Source of the DNA: Pseudomonadota bacterium
Lineage (GTDB): Bacteria > Pseudomonadota > Gammaproteobacteria > Acidiferrobacterales > Acidiferrobacteraceae
DNA: 43,393 bases
Assembly: GCA_021819125.1 (NCBI GenBank)
Contig: JAKARW010000003.1
Location: 32,829 to 76,221 of the forward strand
Reading direction: 5' to 3'
Positions 5,143-43,393 of the stretch are shown piece by piece. Each line of letters starts with the position of its first letter. The stretch's first letter is position 1. A model generated the notes under the pieces. It was not told where the DNA came from and made no database searches. It saw nothing but the letters and a program-made list of their open reading frames with translations. Both the position numbers and the translations under genes were made by a program.

Positions 5143-5895
5143 GTGAAACGGATATTGATCAGCAACGATGACGGATACATGGCCACCGGTCTTGGATGTT
5201 TGGCCACGCATCTTGCGCGCACCGCCGAGATCACGGTGGTGGCGCCGGACCGAGATCGTAGCGGGGCGAGCAATTCGCTGACTTTGCTGCGGCCACTGCG
5301 CGTATCGCGCGCCGCCAACGGTTTTTTCTTCGTTGATGGCACTCCCACCGATTGCGTGCACGTCGCGATCACGGGACTGCTTCAACACGAGCCCGATATG
5401 GTCATCGCCGGCATCAATCACGGCGGGAATCTCGGTGACGATGTTTTGTATTCCGGAACTGTGGCGGCGGCCATGGAGGGGCGGTTTCTCGGGCTGCCAG
5501 CCATTGCCGTGTCGCTCGCGGCGGCCAATCCCGTCCATTTTTCGACCGCGGCGGCGGTTATCGAACATCTGCTTGAAGCGCTCACCCCCGAGACCTTGCC
5601 CGCCGATACCGTATTAAACGTGAACGTGCCCGATGTCGCCTATGCCGACCTGCGCGGCTTTGAGGCGACCCGTCTCGGGCACCGTCATAAGTCTGAGCCT
5701 GTGATCGCGGCGCATGATCCGCGTGGACGGCCGATCTATTGGGTGGGGCCGCCGGGCAGCGCCGAGGACGCCGGTCCTGGCACCGATTTTCATGCGATCG
5801 CCGCGGGCTATGTCTCGGTAACGCCCATACACGCCGACTTGACCCGCCACAACGCCCTCGATGCCCTCAAGGTTTGGTGCCGGGAGACGTTGTGA
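5143..5895 (+). CDS. surE: 5'/3'-nucleotidase and polyphosphatase SurE
   Basis: Hydrolyses nucleoside monophosphates and short polyphosphate, and is linked to stationary-phase survival. 250 residues. The N-terminal ILISNDDGY motif supplies the metal-binding D9 and D10. Further metal-site residues are in the [10 protein letters not shown] loop and the [17 protein letters not shown] segment, all intact. The start is GTG 5143 placed three bases after the SppA-like gene. The stop overlaps the pcm GTG (GTGA). This begins the classic gammaproteobacterial surE-pcm-nlpD-rpoS string. Confidence 0.96.
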
Positions 5896-6554
5896 GTCGC
5901 GAACCGCACTTCGGTGCCGGCATGACCTCGGCGCGCACCCGCGAGCGTCTTATAGGACGGCTGCGCGAACAGGGCATACGCGATGAGGAGACGCTCGCGG
6001 CACTGTCTTCGGTCCCCCGGCACTTGTTCGTCGATGAGGCCTTGGCAAGCCGCGCCTATGAGGACACGGCGCTACCCATAGGACACGGACAGACCATTTC
6101 CCAGCCCTATATCGTAGCGCGCATGACCGCGGCGGCGCGCACCTCGGGACCGCTTACGCGGGTCTTGGAGATCGGTACGGGCTCAGGATATCAGGCGGCG
6201 GTGTTGGCGCGTCTTGCCGGGCACCTCTATACGGTGGAGCGCATAGCGGGGCTTGTGCGCGCCGCACGCCAGCGCTTCCAGACGCTGCGGCTTGCCAATG
6301 TCACCGTACGCCACGCCGACGGATGCGAGGGCTGGCCGGATGAGGCGCCGTTCGACGCCATCCTCGTCACCGCCGCGGCGCGCACGGTGCCCCATGCGCT
6401 CTTTAGTCAGCTAAAGGAAGGCGGGCGCCTTGTGGTACCGGTAGGCGTCGACGGCCAAGAGCTTTTGCTCTATCGCCGGCGCGGCACGGCGATGACCTTT
6501 GAACGCCTTGAGGTAGTCAATTTCGTGCCACTGCTCCCCGGGGAAATCGTGTAG
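5892..6554 (+). CDS. pcm: Protein-L-isoaspartate O-methyltransferase
   Basis: Uses S-adenosylmethionine to methylate L-isoaspartyl residues, the first step in repair of aged proteins. SAM-binding motif I is [13 protein letters not shown], and the substrate-recognition loop [13 protein letters not shown] is present. I placed the start at GTG 5892, which overlaps the surE stop and has GGGAG seven bases upstream, giving 220 residues. ATG 5922 would give a length matching E. coli Pcm and cannot be excluded. nlpD follows after two bases. Confidence 0.95.
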
Positions 6555-41969: not shown

Positions 41970-42020
41970 TTGAGGCTACGGTCCGAGCCTTGCCGTGCGT
42001 TCATATCCGGGGAGATTCGT

Positions 42021-43262
42021 TTGAATAAAAGGCGTGTCGTCATAACCGGGCTTGGGGCGGTCACGCCCCTTGGTCTTAATGTCGCCGAAAACTGGCGGCG
42101 CATCACCGCAGGCGAGAGCGGGATCGGCCCGGTGACGCAATTCGACACAACCGGATTCCCGTCGACCATCGCCGGGGAGGTCCGGGGATTTGACACAAGC
42201 GCGTTCCTGTCGGAAAAAGAAGCCCGCAAGATGGACCGGTTTATCCAGCTTGGCATAGCGGCCGGAGTGGAGGCCGTCAAGGATGCGGGCATCGTCGTGA
42301 CCGAGGCCAATGCCGAACGGATAGGATGTTATATCGGTTCGGGCATAGGCGGCGTTCACACGATAGAGGAGACCATGCGCCAGTACATGGAAAAAGGTGC
42401 GCGGCGCATCTCCCCTTTCTATATTCCGATGAGCATCATCAACATGATATCGGGGAACCTGTCCATACTGTGCGGATTCAAGGGCCCCAATCTGTCGATC
42501 GTAACGGCGTGCGCCACGTCGACGCACGCCATAGGCGAGGCCGGCCGCATCGTCGAGTACGGGGACGCCGATATTATGATCGCAGGCGGCGCGGAGGCCT
42601 CGGTGACACCGACCTCGATGGCGGGCTTTGGCAATGCGCGGGCGCTTAGCTCGCGTAACGACGATCCGACACGCGCCAGCCGCCCCTGGGATCGCGATCG
42701 CGACGGCTTTGTGTTGAGCGAAGGCGGGGCCATCGTGGTCCTGGAAGAGCTCGAACACGCCAAGGCGCGCGGTGCGCGCATTTACGCCGAGCTTCTCGGG
42801 TTTGGCATGAGCGGTGACGCCTACCACATGACAAGTCCGCCAGAGAACGGGGAGGGGGCGGCGCGATGCATGCGCTATGCCCTGCGCAATGCCGGCCTCG
42901 ATATTGCCGACGTGTCATATATCAACGCCCACGGGACCTCGACTCCGCTCGGCGATCGTGCCGAGACCATCGCGATCAAGCAGGTATTCGGGGATCGTGC
43001 GAAAAGACTTCCGGTCAGCTCGACCAAGTCGATGACCGGGCATCTTTTGGGGGCGGCGGGCGCCATAGAGGCCATCTACACGGCGCTTGCCATACACGAG
43101 CAGGTAGCACCCCCCACCATCAACCTCGATCAGCCAAGCGAGGACTGCGACCTCGACTATATCCCGCACACAGCGCGCGAGATGCCGATCACCCACGCCC
43201 TCTCGAACTCCTTTGGATTTGGTGGTACGAACGGGACGATCGTGCTCGGTCGCTTCCGCTAA
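42021..43262 (+). CDS. fabF: Beta-ketoacyl-ACP synthase II
   Basis: Elongating condensing enzyme. I place the start at TTG 42021, which has GGGGAG seven bases upstream and gives [18 protein letters not shown] and 413 residues, the same length as E. coli FabF; the frame is open back to the acpP stop but that part is not FabF-like. Catalytic C164 is in [14 protein letters not shown], with histidines in [11 protein letters not shown] and [10 protein letters not shown]. It ends at 43262 (TAA). The genes that commonly follow (pabC, mltG, tmk) are not there: a structured element begins four bases later. Confidence 0.96.
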
Positions 43263-43266
43263 CGCC

Positions 43267-43393
43267 GTCAACTACCCCACCCTAAAGGGTGGAGCTTGGG
43301 AAACCAAGCTGGGTTGACCAGGGGGCACGAGTAGTACCGTGCAGACGTTTGTAACGGGCGAGCAAGACGCACCGGCGAATGCTTCCTCAGTTC
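43267..43393 (+). ncRNA. Putative HEARO / IscB omega RNA, 5' part (runs off right edge)
   Basis: A chain of hairpins starts right after fabF. An outer stem GTCAAC (43267-43272) pairs with GTTGAC (43313-43318). Inside it are CCACCC-TAAA-GGGTGG (43277-43292) and AGCTTGG-GAAA-CCAAGCT (43293-43310) with a GNRA loop, forming a three-way junction. Next comes GCACG/CGTGC (43325-43342), then AGACGTTTGTAA (43343-43354) and GACGCACC (43366-43373). From memory, the IscB omega RNA (HEARO) has the same order: a 5' CAAC...GTTG-closed stem, then AGACxTTxGTAA, then GACGCACC. That RNA lies directly 5' of iscB, with its guide at the 5' end. The iscB gene would be outside the window. The alternative is the right end of an IS200/IS605 element whose tnpB lies on the minus strand. 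Either way it is transposon-derived structured RNA. Confidence 0.6.

Follow-up and report, generated by a model that had tools for sequence, protein, structure and literature searches.

The window, a stretch of 43,393 nt from a member of the Acidiferrobacteraceae, terminates inside a mobile element. Its last 127 nt (43267–43393, plus strand) are the 5′ part of an IscB omega RNA (HEARO, RF02033) and form the left end of an IS200/IS605-like, IscB-carrying element. We put the probability at about 0.93 that this element occupies the junction between fabF and pabB, directly before the ATGA with which pabB starts. Both ends of the element can be seen, in the same orientation and at a defined target site, and with them the RNA and the 3′ end of iscB. 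A preliminary description made from the letters alone had taken the RNA at this edge to resemble an IscB omega RNA; the observation and its interpretation as an IscB-type element are both supported.

The covariance search proposed in that description was run with cmscan, and RF02033 matches 43267–43393 on the plus strand, as required for the proposed element, with a score of 62.3 bits (E = 3.2e-12). The match covers model positions 1–117 of 211, the 3′ side of the RNA being cut off by the end of the contig. The gathering score of the HEARO model is 83 bits, and the partial copy falls below this and is unlisted in a scan at the gathering threshold because roughly half of the RNA lies beyond the contig end. 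Complete copies of related omega RNAs score 83–110 bits with the same model. A search of the whole genome of origin with the HEARO model at search threshold gave no match, again because the copy is truncated.

Starting at the 5′ terminus, the outer stem is formed by GTCAACT (43267–43273) pairing with GGTTGAC (43312–43318). Two hairpins lie within the 5′ part of the omega RNA, one with the stem CCACCC/GGGTGG and a TAAA loop, and the other a 7-bp hairpin in which AGCTTGG and CCAAGCT are connected by GAAA. A fourth stem comprises GCACG (43325–43329) and CGTGC (43338–43342), and is followed by the strings AGACGTTTGTAA (43343–43354) and GACGCACC (43366–43373). All these stems and strings had been named in the preliminary description, and each is present at the position given there. 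The minimum free energy of the 127-nt fold is −53.6 kcal/mol, compared with a mean of −40.6 kcal/mol for shuffled sequences (z = −3.4), and none of the 200 shuffles was as stable. The stems are kept in an alignment of 30 related copies, with both-side changes at four of the 23 predicted pairs, and the outer stem (columns 1–7/60–66) is preserved in all 30.

The RNA begins just downstream of an intact gene for a fabF-like beta-ketoacyl-ACP synthase (41970–43262, plus strand; PF00109 and PF02801), the stop codon of which is located 4 nt before the insertion. Related genomes are similar to the window across fabF, and this similarity ends within a few bases of the end of the gene, at the latest at 43266; the RNA is therefore an insertion right after fabF. 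The first base of the element is the G of GTCAAC at 43267; this boundary is common to more than 40 other copies, which begin there after unrelated flanks. In the relatives an open reading frame of ∼445–450 codons follows within a few bases of fabF and encodes a pabB-like chorismate-binding enzyme.

In the window genome pabB is found on a second contig, C60, where it starts with ATGA at base 123. The preceding bases (C60:1–122), outside the window and directly before pabB, are the other end of the element. C60:1–120 translates to DGYGYSWTKIAYTQGDAGTGAACAAALSLPRMNPGVSRAN, which is 82% identical over 39 aa to the C-terminus of IscB from a Sulfobacillus MAG (E = 5e-12). From the fabF–pabB synteny and the iscB tail before pabB it follows that one element lies between the two genes. 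The preliminary description had predicted an iscB gene to the right of the window on the plus strand. The far end of that gene is indeed present, its last 40 codons standing at the start of C60 in the same orientation as the RNA, while its central part (∼1.4 kb if the gene is full length), which would encode the PLMP, split RuvC and HNH domains, is absent from the assembly.

When the left flank (to 43266) and the right flank (from C60:123) are joined, they align without gaps to the uninterrupted site of three related genomes, with 69 of 80 positions identical. The joined flanks read ...CGCTAACGCC followed by ATGAATGG..., and the empty site of the relatives reads ...CGCTAACCCC followed by ATGGATGA..., so that there is no target duplication at the insertion. 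The assembly does not physically link the window contig (C31, ending at C31:76221, which is window position 43393) to C60, and the ends of the two contigs could be parts of two unrelated partial elements with a rearranged fabF–pabB junction. This is very improbable given the adjacency of fabF and pabB in the relatives, the gapless alignment of the flanks, and the presence in the genome of just a single left end and a single right end. An assembly chimera or contamination of the MAG could also have placed a foreign element end beside fabF, at the edge of the contig. MAGs of other phyla from acid environments contain similar elements, and the element ends look like overlaps of k = 127; but two independent contig ends hold parts that complement each other as the two ends of one element, precisely where the empty site lies, making an artefact of this kind harder still to credit.

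The single element between fabF and pabB is thus split by an assembly gap, across which it continues from the end of C31. The left contig stops exactly 127 nt inside the element, and the right contig opens with 122 element bases plus ATGAA, also 127 nt in all. In a Sandtown Methylacidiphilaceae MAG three stretches likewise break off 126 nt into an element of this kind. This suggests that a graph assembly with k = 127 was broken at a repeat, with other copies elsewhere in the community or in unbinned DNA. The value of k is deduced from these lengths; against it, the other copies that it implies are not seen in the bin. An iscB core was sought in the assembly of the genome itself and none was found. 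A match to NF040563 on another contig (C100; 37 bits, HNH part only) was rejected as an unrelated HNH protein that is present in all the relatives. Exact 30–31-mers of both element ends gave no match in viral contigs, and the gap is therefore not fillable from an identical copy; the phage records searched also gave no match.

Full-length relatives of the element measure ∼1.66–1.88 kb, and ∼1.4 kb is therefore missing here if the copy is full length. An intact nuclease gene at the fabF–pabB site is likely. Several copies from the same genus (G008, G005 and G012) are full length with open frames, and a repeat of 430 bp should be easier for paired reads to bridge than one of 1.7 kb, so that the complete break would mildly favour a full-length copy. 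It is rather unlikely that the element is instead an internally deleted derivative without nuclease, comprising the omega RNA and a short iscB 3′ remnant (∼430–700 bp) and mobilised or supplied in trans. Such two-ended deletion derivatives are found in relatives (L091, L098, L102 and L092, ∼428 bp; L074, 549 bp; L099, 600 bp), and the bin from which no iscB core was recovered would fit with this.

The right ends of the clade were defined by their hairpin and spacing, and not by the target. Of the 20 right ends that were recognisable and had this spacing, 19 are followed by ATGA and one (L146) by ATGG. All 18 of the ATGA insertion sites that could be scored open a reading frame of 60 aa or more (median 263), compared with 40% of the 544 ATGA sites from the loci concerned (median 37). 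The binomial probability (P = 7e-8) is indicative, as the right-end pattern was drafted after the first examples had been seen and some of the copies are related. The bias towards start codons could be explained by the purging of gene-breaking insertions, without special targeting.

In full-length copies of the clade the iscB frame is open for ∼450–550 codons, passing through the right-end hairpin up to the target. The iscB genes of this clade have no stop codon of their own. Their stop comes either from the TGA contained in the ATGA (A/TGA) or from a TG/A that is created at the junction, and the window element is of the junction type, with TG/ATGA at C60:121–126. More distant copies (for example on a Pseudomonas plasmid and in L142–L145) have an earlier stop codon within the element, and the target-supplied stop is therefore a trait of the clade. 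The stop overlaps the ATG of the downstream gene, and coupling plausibly keeps that gene translated. More tentatively, the clade may be specialised for operon start codons, with ATGA serving as TAM, as iscB stop and as start of the next gene, and with coupling lowering the cost of insertion. No report of target-supplied iscB stops was found in the open-access subset of the literature, which is weak evidence. The RNA, the protein family and the logic of insertion are already known, and the target-supplied stop is a modest new detail.

In the IscB family the guide is taken from the DNA that borders the scaffold on its 5′ side, and the TAM is a target motif at the opposite flank. From its place directly 5′ of the scaffold, a segment of ∼16 nt (43251–43266, plus strand), comprising the 3′ end of fabF with its TAA stop and 4 nt, is the putative guide. 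By analogy with known families, the omega RNA would carry this fabF end as guide, and guide-loaded IscB would recognise the empty fabF–ATGA–pabB site with ATGA as the target-adjacent motif. A Y1 transposase supplied in trans would excise the element, whereupon IscB would cut the empty site and repair from a sister copy would restore the element; the function of the nuclease would then be retention of the element. No tnpA was seen adjacent to the element. The same genome contains Y1 transposase genes that could work in trans, one intact (C48:8472–8816) and one with a stop codon (C69:432–785), both unlinked to the element.

An RNA at a contig edge can thus be identified correctly by eye, and the rest of its element traced to another contig end through synteny. 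A target that gives the nuclease gene its stop and the next gene its start is a testable reason for the persistence of such elements inside operons of needed genes.

A number of other arrangements were observed among the related elements. The ∼428-bp elements of the Sandtown Methylacidiphilaceae MAG (L091:5756–6183, L098:3276–3704, L102:405–833 and L092:6519–6947) have the omega RNA and both ends without the iscB core, and several of them each adjoin an ATG start. Internally deleted iscB genes, in which the N- and C-terminal parts are fused and the frame is open to the target stop, occur at L099:5276–5876 (112 codons), L008:3001–4293 (335 codons) and L113:643–1343 (136 codons). At L006 two IscB elements stand in tandem (6020–6096 and 5884–6015), the second inserted exactly at the right end of the first, so that this right end would be its guide. 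A 22-nt core of the omega RNA is identical across acid-environment MAGs assigned to Methylacidiphilaceae, Acidithiobacillus, Sulfobacillus and Clostridiales (L091–L108); its occurrence in several phyla hints at wide horizontal spread or at binning errors. Plasmid pAt1 of Allochromatium tepidum has a 5′ fragment of the omega RNA (L010:1069–1126) with no iscB annotated beside it, and an iscB elsewhere on the plasmid.

The window RNA resembles the HEARO/IscB omega RNA in matching from model position 1, in the order of its stems and in lying on the iscB strand, upstream of that gene, and differs in comprising only the first 117 of the 211 model positions. Homologous RNAs with 73–84% identity immediately precede iscB genes, either annotated or detectable, in plasmids of Pseudomonas and Polaromonas, in Acidithiobacillus, in Sulfobacillus and in others, and the IscB proteins of the relatives carry RRXRR and HNH domains. 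The elements on the plasmids of Pseudomonas paraeruginosa (NZ_CP027167) and Polaromonas JS666 are similarly ATGA-adjacent, with RNAs 74–76% identical to that of the window followed by annotated iscB. However, iscB of the Pseudomonas copy stops before the right end, whereas in the window clade the frame continues across the right-end hairpin to a stop supplied by the target. The related OMEGA nickase IsrB has a TAM of the NTGA type and is active on ATGA in vitro (PMC9581776). IsrB lacks the HNH domain that is present in the close relatives of the window element. For the target-supplied stop there is a precedent in IS870, which to our knowledge is not an RNA-guided-nuclease element. The stop codon of the IS870 reading frame is reported to be made by its target, CTAG (ref. 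93 in PMC6471742). The target of the window element is ATGA, which doubles as the start codon of the gene that follows.
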